Below are positions 9,981 to 25,443 of a stretch of DNA of 64,000 nt, piece by piece (position 1 is the first letter of the stretch; every line of letters starts with the position of its first letter). The DNA is from Ceratodon purpureus (taxonomy: Eukaryota; Streptophyta; Bryopsida; Pseudoditrichales; Ditrichaceae): contig CM026426.1 in NCBI GenBank assembly GCA_014871385.1, positions 104,071,281 to 104,135,280 on the forward strand. Reading direction: 5' to 3'. The position numbers and the translations under genes were made by a program. The notes under the pieces are model-generated. The model made no database searches. It saw only the letters and a list, made by a program, of their open reading frames with translations, and was not told where the DNA came from.

Positions 9981-12812
9981 TCAAAGAAACAAAAAAATAA
10001 TGAGCAAAGAATAGAAATTAAAGAACAAAATCCTAAACTAAAAACTTATTTATAAAAATTGGAATCTGAAATTAGAATATGTGAATATTTTTAAAATAGT
10101 TTTATCTTCATAAGTTTTGGGGACATGTGAAGGTGAATGGTAATCTTATATCTTGTTGATAGCATTGCACTTTCCTTTCAAGTACCATACATCTCCTGTG
10201 TGAATACACGGAATAGTTCACTATAATGAACATATAGGCCAATATTTATGTCAATTCATATGGAAAAATTTCATCGAATAATTCATTGTTTGAGTATATC
10301 AATAAGCCGCTTGCAGAAAGCACTTGTCTTGACGACGCCAAATACCATTCTCTATAATATAAATGCAATTATAGCATTCAATGTTTGTTCTTTCTAATTT
10401 TTCTTAAATAGAAGGATCTACGATGATAGTTGTTATTATAGTCATTTGCATTATAAAAGAATTGCTTTGTACTATTGTTTCCCTTAGTGATAATATAGAT
10501 CCATTTCAACCATATGTGGAGGATGACAATGAAGAGCTTGGAAAAGAGTCTAGATAATCTCAGACACTGTCAATGAGAGTTGAGAATAAATAAGGTCTCA
10601 AGCAAGTTGGACTAACAATTATAAATTCTATTATTATCGTGGATCTCGACTAGGAAGCAAACTTGTCTCAACCAACTCATACATATTTGAGGGCAAAAAG
10701 ATCCTTCTAGGAATATATTTTAAATTTGCACTTAATGTTTTGTTAATATCAAGGCCTATGGAAAAGCTTTTACAACATGACCATGTGCTATCTATGCTGC
10801 CAAAGATGGATGTGAACGTTGATTTTCTTCCATTGAAGTTGTATGTTAGTAGTTATGATGAAATGGCAAAGAGAATACCAAAGCGCATTTGATTTAATTA
10901 ATGTTACCTACTCAACAAGCAATTGTTGTCAGCAATGAATTTTTGTGTTTAATATGAATGGAGTCTTGGTGGGTGGCAGGAAAAAAGTTGTGCTTAATGT
11001 ACTTGTCGAAGTTTGCAAGGTATTAGATGTGACTGTGATTTTATGAAAGATGTGGATGCACGTCGACAAAGTCTTAAGTATTGCCATCAGATATGAATTG
11101 CATAATGCAATAAATGTAAACAAGCTTTATATTAAAAAAGACAATACAAATTTAATTTTGTTAGGTCAATTTCAAATAAATCAAACATGAAGGACAAGGC
11201 AATTATTTGTTAATACAAATCACTCTAGAGAAGAACTTACCCAAGATTGCTCCTACTTCTTAGACAAATGGTGAGTTAGAATTACCCTTTCAAAGACTAG
11301 CTGAACGTAGGCGCCTTAATTAAAATGTCAATTTTGGAATTGCAATGGCAAACCTTTGAAAGGGTGAAGTAAAAATGGTTGCAAAACATGATCTTCCGCC
11401 TTTCTCAAGTTCTTTTACAAATTCTGTATTTATTATAGAAGAAATTTGATGGCACAAAGTTCCAACGGTTACAAGCAATGCGAAAACTACCCATGAGGTT
11501 GTGATAAAGCTCTTGAAGGGGAGAAGACACTATCTCGTAATGAACAATTATTTTTGTTCCATACCTTGTTTTAGGTTCTATTAGATAAATTGGTTTATCT
11601 TCAATAGTTTTATTTTTATTTTTATTTTATTTGTATTTTTTATTTTTTTTTTCATAGTTCTTCTTATATTTTATACTTTGTTCTTTCATAATTCTTTGTT
11701 CTACCTTTATTGCATGAAAAATTTCCTTCAATTTTTTTTTTGGGTTATGTTTAGAATGGTTTTTAGTAAAAGGTCTCTTAGTGGTTCTAGTGTCAACTAC
11801 ATTATATGCAACAAGTATTGTGCCTTCTAACCAAATTGGACTTCCTCTGCGGTTGGCAGATGTGGTTGCCCCGACAAAGATGGACCAAGGGTAATCTTGA
11901 GAAGGAGATGCATGATTCTCATAGCAACTCTTGCATAATTTGAAAGGATAAACGTCTAGTGCTATTTTTGTCTACCTATGCTTTCCTATTAGTCTATCCA
12001 AATGCAGCAACTCCAACAGTATTACGAAGGACGTATGCAATGCATCAAGGAATACCTACATCACTAGTATCACAAGAGTACACAACACACATGTATAGTG
12101 TGGATGCGACCAATTGAATTAGATTTTCATATACATGCCAAACCAGAAACTACAAATGGCAGTACAAGAATTTCAACATGCTTTTAGACATATCAACCAT
12201 GAATATATACCTGATGCACTTGGATAAATATAGGATTGTATCAAACCTCGTGAGGCAACCTTCACACCTGCAATCACAAATTCCATTGTTTAAAGTTTTG
12301 TTCGAGAGGTAGCTACAATATAGTAGCCATATGCCATCTATAAACATGGTTTGCAGCATCAGGATGTGGTTTGTTGCTTTTGAACAACACATCATTTTCA
12401 TCTTGACATGCAATTCACATGCCTTCGCAACGATTGTTAGCAAAAAGTGTACGAAGGGTTGCGTTGGTAGTAGGTTGTATGAAGTAGATTTTGGAATGAA
12501 CCATTTTGTATGATTTTTTTCCTCGCATTTTTCTTACTATATCCAAACACTTTCCCAAGAGTAAGAGCTAGAATCTTTTTCTTTTTCTTTATGCATGAAA
12601 TAAATATGAAAGTAGTGAATCTGAAGACTTCATTCCATTAGAGTTTAATTTTTGTAAATCCAATGTTCTAGGATTTATATGGTTATCCACATTCATTCAG
12701 CAATCATATTTCAGCATGGTAGATGTTTCAATTTTTTTCTCTATGCGCCAACATTCATTCCTTGTACAAGTACAGTGACATTGTAGTGGGTCCTTCGACG
12801 ACATGAATGCTA
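9981..12812. other. AT-rich stretch with no intact gene
   Basis: No long coding frames. Apart from the weak FCP1-like segment at about 10929-11125, I see only scattered decayed sequence. Short frames at 12150-12513 on both strands show no recognisable motif. Confidence 0.4.
10929..11125 (+). pseudogene. Possible FCP1/NIF-like phosphatase domain relic
   Basis: A plus-strand frame reads FVFNMNGVLVGG, then a spacer, then VCKVLDVTVIL, a TGA stop, KMWMHVDKVLS. This recalls the N-terminal part of plant FCP1/NLI-interacting-factor domains, where a DxDGxL-type loop is followed some 25-30 residues later by a hydrophobic strand. Here the loop reads N-x-N-G-V-L, so the catalytic aspartates would be missing. 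The match is short and made by eye. Confidence 0.25.
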
Positions 12813-12829
12813 TCTTGTGAGCGGTGAGC
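12813..12829 (+). repeat. Left terminal inverted repeat of the MULE element
   Basis: TCTTGTGAGCGGTGAGC, identical to the reverse complement of 23419-23435. It is followed directly by a second GGTGAGC, giving a short tandem at this end only. Confidence 0.75.
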
Positions 12830-13334
12830 GGTGAGCACTAAATTTATTAAAATTTTGACTAATTATTTGAATATTTTGAGATGATTTTACATGACGTGGC
12901 ATATAAGGGACCTATGACCGTGGAAGGTGGTTAAGGATAATATCAAAGATAATGGCTTCTAAATTGTTTACTGTAGAAATTTACACCTTATTCATATCTT
13001 CCATATTTGTGATTTATTTAATTTATATCTTAGCTATTCCACGTCATGAATAAGAAGGGAAAATATGAATAAAAACAAATAAAAGATAGAAATAAAATTA
13101 AAAAATAAAAGATTAAAAAGAGTAAGTAAAGAATGAAAAACAAAGAAAATGAATGAATAAATATAGGAAAGAAAGAAGAAAAATCAAGAATAAATAAAAC
13201 AAGATTAGATGAAAAACGAAAATATAAAAAGTAAAGAAAAATAAAAAATTTAAAGAATAATAAGGAACAATTAAAAATGGATAATGAAATCCTAAAAAAT
13301 AAATAAAAAAAAATTGATCAAGAGCCATACCCAA

Positions 13335-13545
13335 CTCCCGATGTGCATATAGTAGATCCTCTACTGTTACCCGGCACCCCTCTCCCGAGCCCTGGCCCTC
13401 CTCCCTACCCTCCTCCCAACCCTTGACCCCCCGCCCTACCCCCGTCGCGACCCGGAGCCCTCCTTTGGAATCCCCTCCGCGACCCGGGGCCCTCCTTTGG
13501 AATCCCCTTCGCGACCCCCTTCCCGCCACGGCTACTGCAGATGAC
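13335..13545. repeat. GC-rich pyrimidine tract with 32-bp tandem repeats
   Basis: A C-rich stretch in otherwise A-rich DNA. Two 32-bp units start with GCGACCCGG at 13447 and 13479, and a partial third starts at 13511. It lies near the left end of the MULE element, between its terminal repeat and the 3' end of the methyltransferase-like gene. The open frames across it are low-complexity and are not called as genes. Confidence 0.7.
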
Positions 13546-14372
13546 TATGGCACCAATTTTTTCTGGATGACAATTTTTTCATCCAAGTCTTGGATGACTA
13601 TTTTTTAGAGGTAGATATTATTAACTGAGACTTAATAACTCTTAAAATAATTAGCATTTTTGAAAACCAACTTTGGATTTGGATTCATAGGGGGGGTATT
13701 TACGCAATGCACAAGGAAAAAAAAAAGGGAAGAGTATTAAGAAAATCACATTATAATGTGGATGCCTTCAAACATTAACCAAGGGAACTTCAACTTAAGA
13801 ATACATTTGTTTGACCTTTATGTTTTAATCATGCATGTAGTCAATGTTAAAATGTAGGGCCGGTATAGAAATTAAATAGGAGTACGGAAAAGCGAGGTTA
13901 AGGCAAAATATAAAATCCAAAGCCAAACTTAATATATGATATATAAGTAGGGAAAACATAAGAGTATAGACTAACTATGCAATGATCAAGGAGACATATC
14001 GTCATTGCTACAAGTACCAATCCAACCATGAGAAGAATCACTATCACTAAACAATACCACTCTCGCAACTTCTGCAGCTATATCAAAATAAATTTCAGCG
14101 TCACGACAAATACTGTCTCTACCAGATGAAATAGATGGAGAAAGAGCAGCTACATAAGCTTCAGCCTGCATCTCAGCATAATGAAGAAGCTCAAGAGGTC
14201 TAATCGGACTTCTTCTCTTGCCAAGATGGCGCGAGATAATAGATCCACTAATGTGGTTGTTTACCGTTTTTTTTCCGCCAACTGCACATGATAATTTAAC
14301 ACTTTAAAAAAAAATGCACTAAAATTTTAAAAAATAAATAAATAAAAATGCCAAATGAATGTAAAGACTTAC

Positions 14373-15450
14373 TTATAAGAACGCTTGGGGGCAGTTTTCT
14401 TCCTAGGCTCATCGTCTGACACAACGGGACGTTTCCTCCTCTGTGCTTGAAAGAAGAGGCAACAACACCTGCTTCTACAAGGTGGTGTCATACTCAAAGG
14501 CTATGACATGACGCCGGAGACTCTTGAATGCTCAAATGGAAGCACCTGCACAGAAATACATTTGTTCCAAGGAATAAGTAGAAAGAATTAATTGTATGCC
14601 AAAATTCATAAAACAAAAAAAACAAAGAGAAGAAAATACCTGTAGAAGCTGTGAGATCCATGACAATGTCATTCTCAACCGTGCACAGATCAATTAGAGC
14701 CTGTAAGAGGTTAGAAGTCTTCTCCCGTGCTCCTCTGAATGGCTTACCATTCTCTGAATTAACCGTCAGAGAATCTGCAGTAATCCAATTAATGCAATGT
14801 CCATCGGAGGAGAGCTTGATGCCTGGGCACCAAACTCAGGCCTATTATAAAACCAAAACTTAGACATTAGAACATCCTCCTCCTCATTCTCCACCTTGAT
14901 AAAGCACTTCACCATAAATGTCTTATGCTTGCATGGATAACGATCTCGTTGAGTCAATGATAGACCATTGATTGCAAATCATTTGGCCTGCTTCTGAAAG
15001 TTAGCCCACTGTGCCCAGGAAATAAACTCATTCAAAATGAACTTTGAGTCAGAGTAAAAAACAATCAAGGCTCCATCATCCTGCAGAAACTATATAGCAA
15101 ACTCAAAATGGGCCTTAATCCATTTAGACTCCATTTTCTTCCCTGCTGGAATCTTGGGGTGCGTGTTCTAAGAGGGAATTTCACCATCTTAGCCTAAACC
15201 TGGAATAGGTAAATCCTCAGGAACATAAAAAATGATGAGGTCCATAGCAGCCTTGGGCTCTTCACCTCTCAAATTCCTAGCCTTGCTACCGTGGTGCTGC
15301 TTCATCCAATCCTTGATCTTGGTCTAGCACGCAGGCTCATCCCTCTCCGATAGATCAGTAAACAACTCCAAAATGCCCATAGGACAATCATTGATGATCT
15401 CAACACTAGTGTCTACTTCATCCAACTGCGAGCATGGAATCGTGTAGACA
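14373..15450 (-). other. Beta-class amino-methyltransferase-like region
   Basis: Reading on the minus strand, MDLIIFYVPEDLP (about 15217-15245) sits where motif IV (DPPY-like) belongs, followed by a DDGALIVFYSDSKF strand. Further on come a motif X-like PFRGAREKT...LLQALIDLC and then motif I, DIVMDLTASTGAS (14640-14660 and into the next exon). After that come LRRHVIAFEYDTTL, the usual acidic end of the second strand that contacts AdoMet. The AdoMet-binding motif is convincing. The catalytic DPPY is not present, so either the family is non-catalytic or the site has decayed. Stops: TAG, TAA, TAG, TAG, TGA, TGA and TAG in this region. Confidence 0.6.
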
Positions 15451-17942
15451 GTGAAAAATGTGGCACCTGAGGGACATAGGAACTATGGCAGTAAGCATGC
15501 TGCTCCCCGAAGGAGAAATGCCAACATGAGTCATCAACTTCTCTGGCCCTTCCTTCAGAACAAGTTTTGCCAACTCCCTCTTCCTTGCTGCCACTTCCTT
15601 CTTGAGCTTGACTTCCTCCTCCTTCTCCTTTTTCTTGTCTTCCTTTTCCTTCATCCTTGCCTCAGCCTTAGCATTCCTCTCAGCCACCTTCCTCTTCTGC
15701 CTTTCAGAAAGGGATGCATCATCACCAACCTGCGAAGTATCCTCTTCCACATGCACCATGTTCTCATCTACAAGCTGCTTCATTAAATTCTCACAACTTG
15801 CTTTAAGAGCTCTCTCCTCTTCAGGATAAATATCATTCTCCTTGAGCTCAAGGTACCAAGGACACTGTAGGAGGTGAGGACCTCCAAAATACCTCCTTTG
15901 ATAATCTGTAAATATGCATTCACTGCTAGAAACATCCACCAACTTCTTAAAACGCTAAGGAATATCCTTCCTGTCAATGGCACCCTTGACAACCAACTTC
16001 CTCCAGAAATACCTCAAGATAGCCCGCTTCATGGCATTCTCAAGCCTGGTGGAGAAATGGCCCATTCTTGGTAAAAGTGCCAACCTTAGGAAAAAATTCT
16101 TAAAGGCTTTCCCCCACAAAGTAATGGAATGAGCCTCAATCCATGAGCCAATGCACTCAACAGGATTAGGTAAGTCCTCTGTCCTCAAAAATATGATGTC
16201 CTCTTCTACAATCTTGGCGTAACGAATGACTGCCTCCTCCTCTAACTGTAGTAGCAAACAATGATAAACTTCATCAGTACATATTTTTCATTAAACAAAT
16301 ATATTGATTCTCTAACCGGTAAAAGGCATGAAATGAATTCAACAATTTCAACCAAAAGATTTAAATACATACCCCAGCCCAAAAGGCAGCCTGTTCAATT
16401 CAAACCCGGAGAACTAAATCAGAAGCAAGTGTTGGAGGAAAGTTATACTCCAGGCAACTCTCCTTGCTCATGTTCCACCACTTTAGCCATCTCTCTGTGT
16501 ACTTGGCAGAAACCTTGGCGCTTGCAAAAAGCTGCAATTTTTTATGGGTCATATCAGGATTTGCCTGATAAATGTCAAAGTGGCGGATGATCTGCAAACA
16601 AGTAAATCATTATCTCAGAAGACCTTGCTATGATATCATATAATAATGTACAAAATGAAGTACAATAAAAAAGAACTATGCATTAACAATACAACGGTGA
16701 GTAGAGAATGGACATGATAAAATTAACAATGCCTAGATACAGTAGTGAGTATACATTGTAATACATCCGAAGCACTAAACTGATTATCTAAAGCTCATAA
16801 ATACCGAACGGTTTACAGTGTCCTACAATCATCTCGAACCATCACTTAAAAGGTTCCCCAGCTCATGCTAACTAAAAATCAACTTCTGTAAGAACATCGT
16901 CATTTGGAATCACAAGAATAATGAGAAGATTCTTATCTCGGATCCGAGGGGACCAGTTCGATGCTTGCTGAAGAATACTTGAGCGATGTCAGCATCTCCA
17001 ATGACATTTAAATAAAACAACCCGCCAACTAACTGCATCCATGACTTTGAATACTTACTTGGAACAGCCGAAGGCAATGCATACACAAGGGAGAAATAAA
17101 ACAAAAAACAAACAAACAAACACATGGGGCTCCCCACTTGGAGCCACACAGAGTGCTTCAAAAAAAGTGAAGTCTGGTGGCCACCCAGGGCACCTCTCAG
17201 ATCCGAGGCATGGTCCGAGGGTGCCACCGGGAGTCACTTATTTGTCACAGGCAGCTCAAAAAAAAAACATGCCGAGGCCAAGCCTCAGCCAAAGCCCAAG
17301 TAGAGACGTACCTCCTTGATAAAGCCTTCTCCATTTGCAGGATTGGCGATCGTAACATAGCAATTCAAATCTGTTGATAGTGAAGTTTTCTTCTTCTCTA
17401 CTGCTTTTGTAGTAGCAACAAGGAGCTTAGACGGACTCCCTACCCTGTCATCTCCATATCCGGCTACCAGGGAGTCTTTATATGCTCAAATTGCGTCCTC
17501 TTGGGCAACGGATATCTCTCTCTAGAAGAGCAATATTCAGTTGTTAGTCTCAAATCATTTAATCAGTTAATATCCAACAATGATACTGAATAAACAAAGG
17601 CTTACGTCATACAAGAAGTTGATGAATGCATCATGTGTGAGATGATACCACTTCTTGTTTTTTGTGCATTGCCACTCAAGAATGTTGGCTTGCAAGTCCT
17701 CATCTTTGACAAGACCTTTGAGTTGGTCAAAGTCCAATAATCCTAGTTGTTGGACACGCTTCATATTATGTGTCCAATGCTATGCAACGTGGTCCACTTG
17801 GTTCTTTATGAAACACATTGAAGATAGGCTTAGAGGCATACAATTGCAAACATTTAATTCATATTGTCAAGCAAGTCCCAGTGACTTGTTAAATGGTAGT
17901 ATTGATTAATCATAATTAAGAAGTTTGAAGTTTACAGATTAC

Positions 17943-18542
17943 TTGTTCCAATCAGTCATGGCATGCAAGAGCATATTGCAATTTGCAGGCCTGACGTTAA
18001 TAATAACTGATTAAACAATTACATGGAATGAAGCATCATGTTGGTGAACAGTGTTGATACTTTCTGTCCATGCTATGTGGCGATGGTTTCCATCCCACAT
18101 ATAGAAATAGCGGTTGGAGTATTTCTCCAACCCGGGAGTTGAGAGCAAACGTCCCTCAAACTCATGATCCACCTTGCGCCATAACTCTGACCACGACACC
18201 CTACTTGACTCTCTATTTGACTCTGTAACACTGGATTCCTCCATCCTGAAGCTCTTCAAAGATAGATAGAAGCATGATGATGCAAGCTTGTATCCACGTG
18301 CGAATTCAGTCTTCAATTTCTGGATGTCCGTCTTGAGCGGCTCCCTCACATCTTTCATAGGAATCATCCTACAAAGTGGCACGTCGATCTCCATACTTGG
18401 TAAATCAACCGCATTTTGAAATACCAGGTGTGAGCTCCCGATCACATCTCTGCGAAGCTTGTCCTCCATCTCGGCCATGCCACCTCCGCTACAGTCCATG
18501 CCTACATGTGAGGTAGGCACCTCTTTAATCCCATGCTCTGTG
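17943..18542 (-). other. Exon 2 with ParB/sulfiredoxin-like DGNHR motif
   Basis: The codons for WDGNHRH lie at 18077-18097. In ParB-type and sulfiredoxin-like proteins a D-G-x-H-R loop contributes to nucleotide binding or nuclease activity. The hydrophobic stretch before it (NRYFYM) and the segment after the TAA stop near 18012 (VRPANCNMLLHAMTDWN) are read in the same frame, so I treat this as one exon. Reading it as ParB-like is by motif only; the rest of the fold is too divergent to judge. Confidence 0.45.
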
Positions 18543-18951
18543 CTCATCTGCAAGCCACCCGGTTACGTAGTGAGCAGGCATAATTTAATAGTGAAATGCT
18601 AGCAGCTAGAGACAACGTCGCTGCCTCAAGCATGCAAAGTGAACTATACTTCTGCATTCAGGAATGGAGAACAATGAGAATATCGAGAACAACTTCTACT
18701 TACCTTTGCGAACTTGAGAAGTCTTGGCGCCGAATCCCCCTCCACGGCCTCAGCGTTGATGGGCCATCCCCTCTACCTCTAACTCGCAGCTCGGGTAGCT
18801 TTACCGCCTGCTCTTCCTCAACGATCTCAAACTGAACGCGGTCTTCACTTAGATTATCCCGCAAATCTGACCCTTGAGTCGTCAGGTCCTCCCCCAAATC
18901 GATTTGCCCCCTCAAGCGCACCTCCAACGAATTGTCTCGCGATTCCCTCAC

Positions 18952-19680
18952 CTACGACCCGCAACAGTAAACACCCACCAGAATATAGATTTGTACTCGG
19001 GCTCCTAGGGTTTCTAGTCCTTCCATCAGCAGGGATTCCTCACATTGAATGTGTTAACAATCACCACTCTGACAATGAATCGCAACTTGGAACACACAAA
19101 TGATGGGGGGTCGAATGCTTACCAGTGGGAGAGTGTCGTGAGCGAGAGTCGAGTAGAGTCCACCACTGCTGGATTTGCTTCTGCCACCAGCCACATTTGG
19201 AGCACCTACACCATGTGTAGTTCGATGCGAAAGCTTCGTACTCCGTCGAAGAGAGTCAACCGGAAGAGTCTACAGCATAATATGGTCACCTAAATGCGTC
19301 ACGGCTCCGTTTTCAATAAAAATATTTCATGCCCGTTTGTTACTCCAAGGAAGTCACCGATTATCTCTCACTTATTTCCTCTCAACCTGAATGAAGGTAC
19401 TCACTAACTTAATCCATTGCAATAAAAATCCATATTGAAAAAGTGATAGTACAAGTTAGAGGTATTGACATTCTTTGTTTTAGTAATAAAAAATGAAACA
19501 CTCGTCAAAAATCAAAATCTAAGCAAACATAGAAGTCTGGTATACCTGAAAGACAGAAGCCAATTTCTTGATTTTAAGACTTCGAGATTCATCTGTGTTA
19601 CAATCCACTTCTGCAATACGGTTGAGAGTTTCCTTTTCCTTCAGTCTCCTTTGGCCTGTGATTTGCTTGGGATTAGCAAA
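18952..19680. promoter_or_regulatory. Divergent intergenic region between the two MULE genes
   Basis: About 730 bp separate the first recognised exon of the methyltransferase-like gene from the transposase ATG at 19681. A divergent promoter would have to lie here, and 5' untranslated exons may too. I see a plant telobox-like AAACCCTA on the minus strand near 19005-19012 but no clear TATA box assignment. The short frames here do not resemble proteins I recognise. Confidence 0.35.
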
Positions 19681-22600
19681 ATGAGTACTTCGCCTTCTCC
19701 CTCTACCTCTAGTCGTACATGATCTGGGAGCTCTAGGCACTCTTGAATTCGGTACTTCCTCTTCCCTCATGTGTCTTACTAACACACTCCTGTCAACATA
19801 CAACTAACTAGGAAGATTGTCATGAATCAAGAAGTGTTTACTTCTGCATCAGTACTGTTTTCTGTGAGAGGATCTCCTACAGATAAATCTACGTTAGCAT
19901 ACAAAGTATGACAGACACATCCTATTTGTCTGGAATTGTGCAATGCTAGGATCTACCACGTATCGTCTTCAAATAATGATGTTACCCATGCAGCCATTCA
20001 TTTAAGACGTCATAGACATCCTGTATCTCAAGGTAGATGTCAGGATTCAATGGACATAATGTTTGACTGCATTGCTAAGGAGGTTCAGAAGACACCTAAC
20101 GCCAAGAATTTTGCTATCATTTTAGCGGCCAGCAAGCAGTACCTTGTCGATACTCTGATCTGTCCTACTATAGGAGGCAGTCATCTTCGGGACCAAGATT
20201 AGTAATGGACCAATTTGAGACTTTTACTTCACGAAATATACGGAATTTTGTTTTTGGATCAAAGAGATTTTTCTGTCAAGGAAGAGGAGTCACAGATAGC
20301 ATCTTGGAGCTCAAGGACTACTCGAACTTTGAGTTCATCCATTGAAATCAATTCCCTCGACAGAATGAAGGCAAGGTATTTCTGTTTAAGGTGTCAACTG
20401 ACCGTCCCCAAAGCGGTGTGGACTTGGTGATGCGCATGCAGCCTGGAGGTGATCTTCAAGACTACTAGATCATGTTCGACCATTTGAGGCGTGTTTCTGA
20501 CTGGACCACCATGGCATGCCACGTTTATGACAATAAGTACTGTAAAGTGATGACCATTGCCCTTTATGACATACAATCTGAAGATGCTGGTGTTCAAGAG
20601 TTATTTTGGCTCCAACTGAATGAAGTTATGCGGAAAATACGGCCTTGAAAATACAAATTTCAAAGGATTCATGGCTGACAATGCTGGAGCCAACTGGCAC
20701 GCTTTGCGTAAGATATATGGGAACGGAGATCCCAATGACCCTATGGAAGACCGGGAGCGCACATGCCTTTTCTACTAGACAAAGTGCCTTCAGAGGGCAA
20801 CTTCTCGCAACATCTTGCTAAGCTATCAAGACCAACACAAAGCTTTATGCAATGTATGGAAGGACGCAAAGACCCAAGAGGAAGCAGAAGCACAGTATAA
20901 TGTCATCCGCAGATGGTGGCTTTCATCAAGCGCTACAACTGAAGAAGGAAGGCGTCACCTAAATGATTGGAAGGCTTTTTGGCACTTTTGCTACAAACAA
21001 GGGGGAGGCTCGATGCAGCTTGCAAGCTCAATTCTCTGCCAACCTTCCATCAACTATTAGTATACCTTGCATGTCATTTATAATCGTGAAAATGACATGA
21101 TGTTCTTTTTTACTTTACCAGGATCTTACACTTGACGAGAGAGCCGACATGCCTTCCTGCAACCTTGCGGAAACCATCTACAACAAATGGCTTCAACAAT
21201 CAAGAAATGGAATGACATGTTTGTACGAGGCTACAGTGGATGATCTCATTCGAGCATTCATGCAGATTACAAGTTATTACTCTTGGCTGAAAGGAAGAAA
21301 GGGCGGTAAAGGTTCTGACAGAGCAGAACTTCGTTTACGCTACGCTCAACGCTCCGGTGACCCCAAGTCAATTTCTGAGGCAGTTAACTCCTACCCGGGT
21401 GCCGAAGATTTATTGACGAAGAAAGGATGCTCGGAAGGTGCAGAGATTTTTGGATCTACGAAACGAAAGTTAGATTTGCCGCCCGGTTCAAGTCATGACT
21501 CGCATCGCTATGATATAGTGAATTATTCCATTCCTTGTGATGGTACGAGGTCCACCAAAGCAAGTAGTGAGGAGGCCCTTTCGAAACCTGACTCGGGTGT
21601 TGAACACACTACTTTAGTTCAAGAGATAGTTTGCGACCCGTCAAAGTGGCACATTGCCAGACTGTCCGGCGAGTCTAGCTGAAAATGCCAAGCAATGCAG
21701 GCTCATACGAATGAGAAGTGCGATACCCGAGTGCGCCGAGGTACACATGGTACACCTGCCCTTACCTATGCAGGACTGAAGAAGGAGTCCAAAACCGATC
21801 GTCATATTTTTACTGACTTCTGGTTTTGCGCCGATGACATTAATAGATGTGTGAAGGGCACAAAGAAGTGGTTTGTGATTGATTGGCCATCTATCCCATA
21901 GACTTAGCATGTGAAAGGGGCACGAACATTAGGAGAAAAATCAGGTCACAAAAAGGTCGTGTAAGCGGCACGTGAGAGAAAAAAACGGGCGCTGCCCGCG
22001 TACTTTTTGACATGGCATGTGAGGTGCCACCGTGGTGCCAACAACCGCCACGGGGGCTTGAACCAATGACCTCCGAGGGAGGCGTGTGGAGGGCACATCT
22101 ACAGTGTCGGGCTGACACAACCTGCCCACTTGGGACCAAAGCCCGAGCCGAGGCATTCATGTCTCACCTAATATTCCGAGGACCTTTGTTGTGAGTGCGC
22201 CACACAGTTCTGTGCGGGCAGCAACTCTGGCATCCGCTGCCAGCGGCAGAGGTGCCCAAAGTAGGGAGTTCACCTAGAAAGGGCAGGCTTACACGGCCTT
22301 ATTTTGAGCTCATTTTTCTCCTAATGCTTGACCATGAAAGAGATTTTGGCTCTTGAAGAGGCTGGCTATCAACTCCAACAACGTGGAGCACTATCACCTT
22401 GTTGTCAATCCCAGGTTGCTGCTAATATGCCGCTTCCAAGGAGTCATTTCCCCGTTCCTCTCAATCTAGATATACATCCGACGACTCGAAACGGATATGC
22501 CATCAGGAGAAGGTCCAAAGCTCCTACCTCCGACCACGCAACAAGTAGAGCAGCGCGGGTCTCATGAACAACTATTGGGTGACAAGTGTCACATCGATCC

Positions 22601-22912
22601 CATATCCAGGATTTGGCTGCATCATCTCCTTAAGAAGTTCAAGTGGAACGGTATATTGTATCTCCATCACAGACTTCCCTGGATGTATTTTCCCCGACTT
22701 CATGAAAATTACTCCGAAAACTCTTGGCAAAAGAGGCCAGTGGAAGTATTGCAAGCATGTGTACTATATCTTCCGCTGTCTATGTGAGATGGATTACATG
22801 GTCGTTACTTCTATGCACGCCCCTAGCTTCAGCTTCATCGAAGTTATGCGTGTTCTGGAGCCGGCCAAACTTGCTGAACTGCTTCAATATTTTCTTATGG
22901 TTAGAGTGTGAT
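19681..22912 (+). pseudogene. MULE-type transposase pseudogene
   Basis: The gene starts with an ATG at 19681 and a serine-rich head. A zinc-finger-like region follows at about 19910-20010 (CLELCNARIYHV, then HLRRHRHPV), of the WRKY-GCM type common in MULE transposases. The core has TTMACHVYDNKYCK (about 20510) and FKGFMADNAGANWHAL (about 20665-20710), giving candidate catalytic aspartates. A conserved HKALC and WW region follows. After a small intron (about 21060-21121) come TLDERADMPSCNLAET and a lysine-rich linker. The last exon ends in a SWIM-like finger, GCIFPDF then CKH (22750-22758), with one cysteine changed to F. In-frame TGA/TAA/TAG stops in the head and core, frameshifts near 20,210-20,270 and 20,640, and an inserted element at 21.9-22.3 kb make it inactive. 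Confidence 0.75.
21928..22325. mobile_element. Small inverted-repeat element inside the transposase gene, tRNA-like promoter box within
   Basis: The left end ATTAGGAGAAAAATCAGGTC and the reverse complement of the right end ATTAGGAGAAAAATGAGCTC match at 17 of 20 positions. The 398-bp interior is GC-rich, unlike the surroundings. On the minus strand it contains GGTTCAAGCCC, a good match to the RNA polymerase III B box of tRNA genes, so it could be, or contain, a SINE. An A box is not clear and there is no evident target duplication. It separates two coding segments of the transposase. Confidence 0.45.
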
Positions 22913-23080
22913 ATTGATTGACCAAGACAATTCCAAAATACAGTATATGAATAGCGGAATTGATTTGTTTTGGCTTTGTGCTGGATTTGGAATCCGCATG
23001 ACATAAATAAAGGTCACTTTTTTATTTATTTAATGTTCACCTCTCAAATTTGGTCGTGGTAAAATAAAGAAGAAAACAAA

Positions 23081-23175
23081 TATTCTTCCATACTTTGGGA
23101 ATATTCTCCTTTCGGATCCGAGGGAAGAATATTCCTTCATACTTTGGAAATATTCTTGTCTCGGATCCGAGACCA
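23081..23175. repeat. Imperfect tandem duplication with TCGGATCCGAG palindromes
   Basis: Two copies of a roughly 50-bp unit (ATATTCTTCCATACTTTGG..., then CGGATCCGAG) lie near the right end of the MULE element. The same palindrome TCGGATCCGAG also occurs at about 16937-16947, and a variant lies at about 17200, inside the same element. Confidence 0.55.
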
Positions 23176-23418
23176 CAAAAATTAAATAAAACAATTGAAA
23201 AAATTAAATTGGATATCCATTATGTATGTGACTTAAACGGTTAGATATTACCCCAAACCATGCACATTTCATTCATTCCACGGTATAGGATCTACTTTTT
23301 TGTATTCATATATTTCAACGAAGTGTCCCAAATTTCTCATCATTATGTGATTGCTCTAAAAAAAATCAGAAAATAAACTAAAAATTCAAATTTTTACACA
23401 AAAACTGAAATTTTTTTG

Positions 23419-23435
23419 GCTCACCGCTCACAAGA
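23419..23435 (-). repeat. Right terminal inverted repeat of the MULE element
   Basis: GCTCACCGCTCACAAGA, the exact reverse complement of the left terminal repeat at 12813-12829. Confidence 0.75.
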
Positions 23436-25443
23436 GAGCGTTGCTGCTTCCACAATATCCACCTTTACACAGAGTCGTTCAAGAATTTCGACAAAAATGA
23501 AGTGATTCATTTCAAAAATGTCCAAAATTTTTAAATCTATCCCAATTGTGCTCTAATTTCTTGTGGTCGTTTTCTCATCGAAAAGTATATATCGACCATT
23601 TGGAATCTTAATTGCATACAAAAAGGTTTTCCTTTTAGATCATTGAATTTAGAAAGTGTAAGGAAATTTCAGCATATCCTCAATGACCATAAAGAGGATG
23701 TTTCAACCTTTTCAAGCAAGCATAAGGCTCAAACTTGCTAAGTGTAAACCTTACTTAAATATTTACAAGAACAAATGGCCCTTTATAGTCCAAATGGCTT
23801 TGCAAACAAAATCTTTAAGCATCAAAACTTAGGTACAGTGAAAAGGTAGTATTAAAACAAATTTCAATAGTGACATTGAGCCTTGTAATCTCCCCATTTG
23901 TACGGTGTATTGATCCTTGATTTTTTATGAACCTTGGTATACAATGAAGGTACAAGATTCCATGGTCACAAAACTCACAAACTCACTAATTTTTTTAATT
24001 AGTGGATTGCTACCAATAATAGTTTGTTTTTAGCAATTTTAACTCCAAAAACATCAAATAACAATAATGGTTAAATATAAAGAAAACTTTTGGAGGGTGG
24101 AATGACAACAAAAGTACTTTTTTTTAGTTCAAAGACCACCAAGCTCCTATACTGCAAATATAGTGAGGCCACCAAACTATTCAATGTTTATCACAAGTAA
24201 TGATACAACAAAGTAAAATCCATGGTTTTTTTAAAAAACTCAAGGTGACTTTATAGATAACTCTATTGACACCTCAAAAATTTGATACCCGCAAAAATAT
24301 AGGTTCTAAAACAATATCACAATAGCAAGAGTTATGTAGATTTTTTCAAGTGAAAGTATTGCTCTTTTAGACTCTTGGAAAGTGAAATGTCCATTATCTC
24401 TAACAAAATGTATTTAGGTTGACGAAAGATTCACACCTCATCATGGATTCTACAAAGTGGAAGAGTGGTAAGCAAAGGTAACTTCTTTTTAGATGAAGCA
24501 GTCCATTCACTAAGAATCTTCTTTAAGACCTATCAAGTTTAACTTCCACTATTGATTGTCCAATGCCTTCTTCGAGCTTCACAGGACCAACTCCTTGGAC
24601 TATGCTTTGTATTCCTTCCTGTGCCTCATTCTAATGGACTTGCATTTGTTTCATTGAGGCTGTGAATGTCTAAAAATTGGGCTGGTAGAAAAAAATCACT
24701 ACATTTGACCTCGTACAAAAAAGAAAAGTTCTTTTAGATTTTATAGAGCTTAAATTGCAAATAACTATTCTATAATACAAGTATATTATTGAATTTGACA
24801 TTTTTTCAATTGATCAAAAATGGTTTCAGTAGAATTGTTTGATGATTGAGATTAGTTTAATCAGTAACAGTTATTATCTTAAGTTCTAGCAATTTTGTTT
24901 TATTTTTTAAATTTTGGATAGGATTTTTGAATAGATATTTACAATTCGTACTTGTAGGTTGTCATATTTAAGTCATTTCTTATCAAAAATAAATCAAGAT
25001 AATACCATTAAACTTCATGAGTTCATGTATTGTAATGATTGTTAAGCACTACATTTTTTTTAATTCAAAACACAAAACTACTAATCACTTATAGTTCTGT
25101 AAAACACACACACAGTGATATTTGAATCAACAAATTCCATATCCTATTAATATCCATTAAAATATTAAATGTTCTAGAATTGGTTTATTTATCACTAAAA
25201 CATTTAAACCTAAACACAAATTTTATAATGTTCTAAAGACCATCTAATAGCCATTAGTTTCTATAAAATTGAGTTTATAATGAACGCTAATTAAACTTGA
25301 AACAACTTCACTCTTATTGGAATGGAAGACGATATTGTCAAGTGTTGATAAAATCTCAAAATTTGAGTGAAATTTCACTTTTGAAGACAATATTTGAATA
25401 TGAAAAATCATTAAACTTAAGTTAAGTTTTCATGATAATGCAG
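23436..25443. other. AT-rich stretch, presumed dynein intron
   Basis: No coding frame or recognisable dynein segment was found between the MULE right end and the first visible dynein exon. The exon at 25444 begins one base into a codon, so an upstream exon ending with two bases of a codon must exist. I do not see it here; it may lie left of the MULE element or outside the window. Confidence 0.4.

Follow-up and report, generated by a model that had tools for sequence, protein, structure and literature searches.

Among the described transposable elements, the closest to the one treated here is Sola1-1_Ec32 of Ectocarpus, in which an opposite-strand gene of 1,104 amino acids (aa) combines a ParB-like part with an N4C/N6A methylase (PMC12477816), and the same report cites cases from green and red algae (Iyer 2011; Petroll 2025). 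Another accessory protein, VANC21 of the Arabidopsis VANDAL elements, is associated with YAGTATTAY motifs lying in the introns of VANC and VANB and upstream of VANA (PMC5735166); VANC binds these motifs, and silencing is lost (PMC5735166, PMC10398659). The bdelloid N4CMT is a host amino-methylase with an SPPY motif and a chromodomain that helps to silence transposons (PMC8885841), and the DNMTs of retrotransposons are C5 cytosine enzymes shown to be active (PMC5890265). The present work concerns a transposon with two divergent genes in a stretch of 64,000 nucleotides (the window) of the moss Ceratodon purpureus (assembly GCA_014871385.1, contig CM026426.1, positions 104,071,281 to 104,135,280 of the forward strand), a species with a 360-Mb genome and U and V sex chromosomes of more than 100 Mb each (PMC8000587). 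An earlier note, made from the sequence of the window alone, had proposed there a Mutator-like element (MULE) pairing a plus-strand transposase with a divergent minus-strand gene, called here the left gene, that was taken to be ParB-like and amino-methyltransferase-like.

An abundant two-gene transposon

The window contains a decayed copy of a DNA transposon with two genes that is abundant and also has open-framed copies. In the genome searched (362.5 Mb, 151 contigs), the exon searches scored 150 of 2,083 candidates for the transposase and 150 of 1,836 for the left gene, and the pairing fractions refer to these lists. All 150 scored transposase exon places matched, so the plus-strand transposase of the earlier note is real. 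The left gene stood divergent and upstream, at no more than 12 kb, for 112 of the 150 scored transposase exons, with a median gap of 4.9 kb, against a mean of 0.36 pairings and a maximum of 3 in 200 trials of random placement on the same chromosomes; the other 38 had no left gene among those listed, and none of the 150 showed only another arrangement. Both genes were present in all ten fetched copies, which had been picked via the transposase.

The pairing was also found between shared terminal inverted repeats (TIRs), as the earlier note had asked to be checked. From 87 of 310 TIR ends, on contigs C1-C3 (13 listed ends on C4 being excluded), 31 pairs of neighbouring ends facing each other within 60 kb were formed, and 16 of them enclose exactly one listed exon of each gene on opposite strands, 12 spanning 12.7-16.1 kb and four 21-50 kb, the latter presumably holding nested insertions. 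Twelve pairs of 2.8-10.2 kb contain neither listed exon, and three contain one. A site of the DVPE motif described below lies inside three of these twelve pairs (C2:10364164, C2:13072056 and C2:23864765), and therefore part of the left gene is present there; the short elements without this site may be non-autonomous relatives. The claim of a eukaryotic DNA transposon family with its own amino-methylase-like gene is thereby borne out by many copies inside their own termini, and the view of the left gene as a single-copy host gene was ruled out by the copy number. As side observations, shorter TIR-bounded elements with neither listed gene exon occur, e.g., at C1:1312678-1315826 and C2:23171395-23174225, and the 110.5-Mb contig of the window (C6), which we take to be the V chromosome, holds 22 of the best 150 of 2,083 transposase exons, with 46.5 expected from its length.

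Termini, target-site duplications and transposase

By comparison with the better preserved copy c5a (contig C5; 12,559 bp), the window element was delimited to 12802-23446 (10,645 bp), so that the span 12813..23435 given in the earlier note had found the element and was 11 bp short at each end. Its 17-bp inverted ends are real and belong to longer termini: the arms 12806-12829 and 23419-23442 are 92% complementary, and in both the window and c5a the TIRs measure about 28 bp and are accompanied by heptads, which in c5a form runs of GGTGAGC/AGTGAGC at the ends. A 22-base TIR core, YGCTATCTTGTGAGCGGTGAGC, occurs at 154+156 sites of the genome, against none for a control read backwards. The window element is flanked by CTTCGACGA and CTTCCACAA, a 9-bp duplication alike at 7/9 positions, 9 bp being the best length (6-8 and 10-12 fit worse), and c5a by a perfect 10-bp duplication, AGTATAGTGT; duplications of 9-10 bp were thus seen in both copies with two readable ends.

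Open copies of the transposase have about 1,200 aa, either as a single 1,231-aa frame (c1a) or as two long frames (c3a, c2a, c13b, c11b), and the C-terminal exon of about 465 aa is open in many copies. The transposase region of the window shares 85-87% DNA identity with c3a and, in four stretches, 78-85% protein identity with copies of the main family. By eye, a cysteine-rich part, a DDE-like core (FMADNAGANWHAVRKVYG...CLFH, its second acidic residue being followed by C-x-F-H) and, near the C-terminus, a SWIM-like CxCx19CxH are recognised, so that the DDE-type and SWIM-like parts of the earlier note were seen again; no Pfam transposase or SWIM model matched the transposase up to E 10, and hhalign against three proteins of the same genome derived from PF10551 hits gave a probability of 0.4%, both profiles being shallow. 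The assignment to the MULEs, likely and unproven, is made because of the duplication length of 9-10 bp and the motifs read by eye: the duplications agree with the 8-11 bp of MULEs (10/10 bp in c5a, 7/9 bp in the window) and TIRs are present, and a match to MULE or Mutator transposase profiles is missing, neither Pfam nor hhalign having confirmed the name.

Left gene and its methylase domain

The left gene is a real, divergent, multi-exon gene of the minus strand, as had been proposed. In c5a it has six exons with GT-AG introns and an unbroken frame of 1,021 aa; a further C-terminal exon is found in the window, and the junction of its c5a counterpart looks, by eye, out of frame. In this protein of about 1.1 thousand aa, an N-terminal domain with the motif DGNHR and a stretch resembling a coiled coil accompany an N6/N4 amino-methylase domain of the beta type. 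In the decayed window copy, each of exons 1-6 contains stops, and exon 5 is broken into three pieces with six stops.

On the c5a protein, the PF01555 (N6_N4_Mtase) match reaches 31.5 bits at a cut-off of 26.7 (E 2.2e-7), which confirms the amino-methyltransferase motifs X and I of the earlier note, and a PHROG DNA methylase matches the left protein at 3.6e-7. CcrM was aligned across nearly the whole domain (query 8-231 of 247, E 0.026), in the permuted order IV-X-I of amino-methylases, with its DPPYNL facing DVPEDL of the left protein, and the left-protein profile met five phage ParB-methylases at E 0.0012 with a probability of 19%. The catalytic motif of known amino-methylases is SPPY, DPPY, NPPY, DPPF or DPPW (PMC8885841). 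The left protein, instead of this (D/S/N)PP(Y/F/W), has DVPE: the pattern of the methylase strand followed by D-V-P-E occurs at 138 genome sites (reversed control, 0), and D-P-P in the same fixed preceding context at none, other replacements lying outside this search. DVPE is common to c5a and c13b, which are merely 37% identical across exon 5; the decayed window copy has FYVPE. Motif I reads TASTG/TTSTG versus FxGSG, the D of motif IV and the D/G of motif I being retained. With 138 sites of DVPE and none of DPP for motif IV, methyl transfer is uncertain, and the suggestion that the element marks its own DNA has become doubtful on the same account. Selection maintains the domain, but it is probably not an ordinary methylase.

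Many more multi-copy N6_N4_Mtase-like exons were noticed in the genome (profile positions ~150-219, open frames of ~150 aa; 150 of 773 scored), e.g., at C12:14530065, C3:17622469, C1:835556 and C1:19940466, those on C1 not being beside a DVPE site; they are possibly methylase-like genes of other transposon families. A single nearly full-length match (positions 2-218, one stop) at C8:9595672-9596436 may be a host gene, a bacterial insertion or a contaminant.

Selection and mosaic structure

Both proteins are under purifying selection. The median ratio of nonsynonymous to synonymous substitution rates (dN/dS), in sets that exclude the window copy, is 0.117 for exons 1-3 of the left gene (11/45 pairs, dS 0.02-1.5), 0.098 for exon 4 (7/21 pairs), 0.146 for exon 5 (6/10) and 0.044 for the C-terminal exon of the transposase (28/45 pairs). 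Across divergent subfamilies, exon 1 of the left gene is 45-48% identical. Among the eight copies of the main family (c3a, c13a, c1a, c3b, c5a, c11a, c2a, c4a), the right parts are 88-95% identical, the alignment starting upstream of the transposase gene at 5.2-5.8 kb into the oriented pieces (6.5 kb for pairs with c3b), and the exon-bearing left parts fall to 68-75% in many pairs, with 80-90% in the closer ones. Because the right parts are alike, the left parts divergent and the units of the repeat arrays described below little alike, we read this pattern as an apparent exchange of left halves between elements.

A palindrome arrayed within the element

The palindrome CTCTCGGATCCGAGAG in this element is new here. 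Its core, CGGATCCG, occurs 94 times inside 11 copies (124,367 bases), from 3 to 22 times in each, and was not found in 105,333 bases assigned to the outside; nine of the 11 copies have their left end out of view, and for these, in this and the position counts, all sequence between the beginning of the fetched piece and the right end was taken as inside. The core lies 83-fold above the expectation from base composition, the next self-complementary 8-mer 9-fold. Beyond the 8-base core, whose invariance in the palindrome logo follows from the search, the extended consensus varies between copies; when CTCGGNNCCGAG is required, 73/73 sites have AT at the centre. In intron 3 of the left gene 36 cores are located, and 21 more lie past exon 3 with exon 4 outside the fetched piece; 16 are right-subterminal, with at least one in each of the 11 copies, eight lie between the genes, seven downstream of exon 5, three in intron 4, two in intron 1 and one in the transposase gene, the start of which is approximate. 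None falls into a matched exon of the left gene.

Most of the palindromes stand in arrays in introns of the left gene, with array units of 393 bp in c13a, 308 bp in c3b, and 150, 117 and 96 bp in c11b, the units of separate copies having only short stretches in common. In aligned intron 3, the palindrome columns are identical at 92.9% (1235/1330) versus 73.7% (5758/7816) for the rest, and are the more alike in 21/21 alignable pairs (28 possible), these alignments being local, perhaps anchored by the palindrome itself, and the pairs non-independent. The base at position -3 co-varies with the lineage of the left gene; this is confounded by physical linkage and was not used. Genome-wide, the 14-base form YYTCGGATCCGARR occurs at 2,591 places, versus three for the reversed control. 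The 3.1-kb TIR-bounded element C1:1312678-1315826 has no palindrome.

Comparison with described systems

The moss element carries, as the algal accessory class does, an opposite-strand amino-methylase gene of about 1.1 thousand aa inside a DNA transposon, and it is a land-plant variant of this recently recognised class of methylase-carrying transposons. With Sola1-1_Ec32 it shares the position of the gene opposite the transposase and a similar protein size (1,021 aa plus the C-terminal exon versus 1,104 aa), and, compared by description, the combination of a ParB-like part with an N4C/N6A methylase, the ParB part of the moss protein being a putative one, by motif. Unlike that element, which belongs to the Sola superfamily, the moss transposon has 9-10 bp duplications and lives in a land plant, and neither the DVPE motif nor palindrome arrays are mentioned in the available part of the Sola1-1_Ec32 description. 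The earlier note had known of no description of such a pairing; algal transposon cases are in fact published (PMC12477816), and among the papers listed by the literature searches no land-plant or MULE case of such a gene, of its palindromes or of a degenerate catalytic motif was recognised.

VANDAL21 is of MULE type. With VANDAL21/VANC21 the moss element has in common an accessory gene of a DNA transposon and tandem arrays of a short motif in the element's own introns and other noncoding sequence, copies differing by gains and losses of repeats. It differs in that YAGTATTAY is non-palindromic, that a methylase domain is unmentioned in the excerpts on VANC, and that anti-silencing was shown there and would be an inference in the moss. 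The phage ParB-methylase fusions (L062, L064-L067) also have an N-terminal ParB-like part followed by a methylase with motif IV before X-I; unlike the moss protein, which is about 600 residues longer and whose ParB similarity is undetectable by profile, they measure ~390-420 aa and have DPPY in 5/5. Like the bdelloid N4CMT, the left protein is a PF01555-type amino-methylase of a eukaryote tied to transposon biology, but it is transposon-borne and has DVPE. Like the DNMTs of retrotransposons, the left gene is a DNA-methylase gene on a transposable element, but of the amino-methylase type and in a DNA transposon.

Proposed role of the left protein and rival explanations

With a probability of roughly 0.55, the left protein is a methylase-derived, sequence-specific accessory factor that binds the palindrome arrays and thereby controls or protects the element. 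Its target would be CTCTCGGATCCGAGAG, which forms arrays in the introns of the left gene and also occurs close to the transposase end of the element; coated in this way, the element would keep its genes expressed or would be shielded from silencing, on the model of VANC in VANDAL elements; we infer both the reader role and, by analogy, the anti-silencing. Since divergent subfamilies have DVPE and not DPPY as motif IV, the protein would act mainly by binding, as a former methylase turned reader; methyl transfer via an unusual site is possible, less likely than binding. A wider interpretation, that of a second, independent VANC-like system, is put forward tentatively, with odds somewhat short of even: a captured bacterial-type ParB-methylase would have lost catalysis, would read parS-like arrays of CTCTCGGATCCGAGAG and would spread anti-silencing, the left halves being swapped like modules among elements with a single young transposase half in common.

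The ParB component of these views comes from the motif DGNHR in exon 1, which is indeed invariant in 11/11 aligned sequences, as the earlier note had seen it, and which presumably resembles a Box-II-like motif of ParB (GxxR type). The assignment of the left protein to ParB is accordingly by motif, as a putative one. DUF1015, a family related to ParB, was matched weakly (E 0.11 in 1/11 members, E 0.03 in 1/2 shortened domains). A PDB search with the DGNHR profile gave eight weak matches (best E 0.55), with no ParB among them; in viral contigs (alignment A1) 0 of 38 pattern stretches were confirmed, in prokaryotic genome contigs (alignment A3) 0 of 134, and plasmids gave one match to the DGNHR domain, at E 6. 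A single-sequence AlphaFold model of exon 1 of the window was discarded (predicted local distance difference test, pLDDT, of 34.9).

Several results weigh against the binding reading and its ParB component. The left protein has no ParB match in Pfam or NCBIfam, and hhalign gave a probability of 0.1% against eight phage ParB domains and of 0.2% against five phage ParB-methylase fusions, so that of the proposed ParB-like domain the motif stands without profile support. The palindrome could also be read by the transposase or by a host factor, its link to the left protein being a putative one. The flanks of the 8-base core differ between copies, the DVPE site C1:773115 is more than 400 kb away from any exact palindrome, and the limits of the intron-3 alignments given above belong here as well. 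Of 50 listed sites of YYTCGGATCCGARR on C1, 24 are, by eye, away from the listed gene exons (the 150+150 scored) and 26 adjoin them; one non-adjacent cluster, of eight sites, is 1.9 kb away from a TIR.

That the left protein is instead an active N6-adenine/N4-cytosine methylase, marking the palindromes (core GGATCC/GATC) for self-recognition by the element or its transposase, appears unlikely. The D retained in motif IV and the D/G in motif I, the GATC within the palindrome core and the parallel with the domain architecture of the genes in algal transposons, for which binding and epigenetic modification of their own transposon have been suggested (PMC12477816), would agree with it; the absence of PP(Y/F/W) from motif IV (DVPE 138, DPP 0) and a motif I of TASTG/TTSTG rather than FxGSG speak against it. 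The palindromes might also serve as sites of transposase binding or of pairing and recombination, with the left gene unrelated to them, for instance a helper like mudrB, the second gene of MuDR. That 11/11 copies have at least one palindrome in the interval from the transposase gene to the right end fits this account, as does the precedent of MuDR, but 57 of the 94 palindromes belong to the intron 3 region of the left gene (21 with exon 4 out of view), and the short element C1:1312678-1315826, with both exact TIRs, is without a palindrome (n=1); the account is considered distinctly improbable. MULEs do capture genes, and the left gene could in principle be passive cargo; such capture is disfavoured, to the point of being very improbable, because of the low dN/dS and the conservation, the gene being retained in divergent subfamilies that are 45-48% identical in exon 1 and adjoining 112 of the 150 scored transposase exons.

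The methylase-carrying transposons reported in algae are extended by this element to a land plant, and a concrete candidate target is added, namely the palindrome of 11/11 copies with its 14-base form at 2,591 places of the genome; the target-site hypothesis is testable in the moss. Should the left protein bind the palindrome, self-protecting transposons would have arisen in plants on two or more occasions, from different proteins, and a methylase fold of bacterial type would have become a reader of DNA.

Features of the window element

The coordinates are collected in the table, which includes a secondary insertion inside the transposase gene.

Table. Features of the Ceratodon purpureus element, in positions of the window
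Feature	Position	Strand	Basis
Left duplication CTTCGACGA	12793..12801	.	7/9 match to 23447-23455
Left TIR with GGTGAGC heptad repeats (left end)	12802..12836	+	homology to left end of c5a; TIR core pattern
Left gene last exon, C-terminal tail	13986..14281	-	open reading frame; acceptor by eye; similar exon in c5a
Left gene exon 6 (broken), past motif I, with basic tail	14378..14543	-	comparison with c5a
Left gene exon 5 (broken), with coiled-coil-like stretch and methylase to motif I	14641..16245	-	PF01555 in c5a
Left gene exon 4, one stop	16373..16591	-	comparison with c5a
Palindrome, core CGGATCCG at 16939, intron 3 of left gene	16936..16949	.	motif search
Degenerate palindrome, at most 2 mismatches to the 14-mer, intron 3	17195..17208	.	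motif search
Left gene exon 3, one stop	17312..17521	-	comparison with c5a
Left gene exon 2, one stop	17606..17806	-	comparison with c5a
Left gene exon 1, DGNHR domain (ParB-like by motif), one stop	17945..18547	-	68% to exon 1 of c5a; alignment A1
Decayed transposase gene region with DDE-like core and SWIM-like CxCx19CxH	19863..22908	+	similarity to other copies
Secondary insertion of ~400 bp, 40-nt inverted ends, inside transposase gene	21927..22326	.	arms 88% complementary; gap versus c3a
Palindrome, right subterminal	23110..23123	.	motif search
Palindrome, right subterminal	23159..23172	.	motif search
Right TIR (right end)	23419..23446	-	arm pairing; same end in other copies
Right duplication CTTCCACAA	23447..23455	.	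comparison with left duplication

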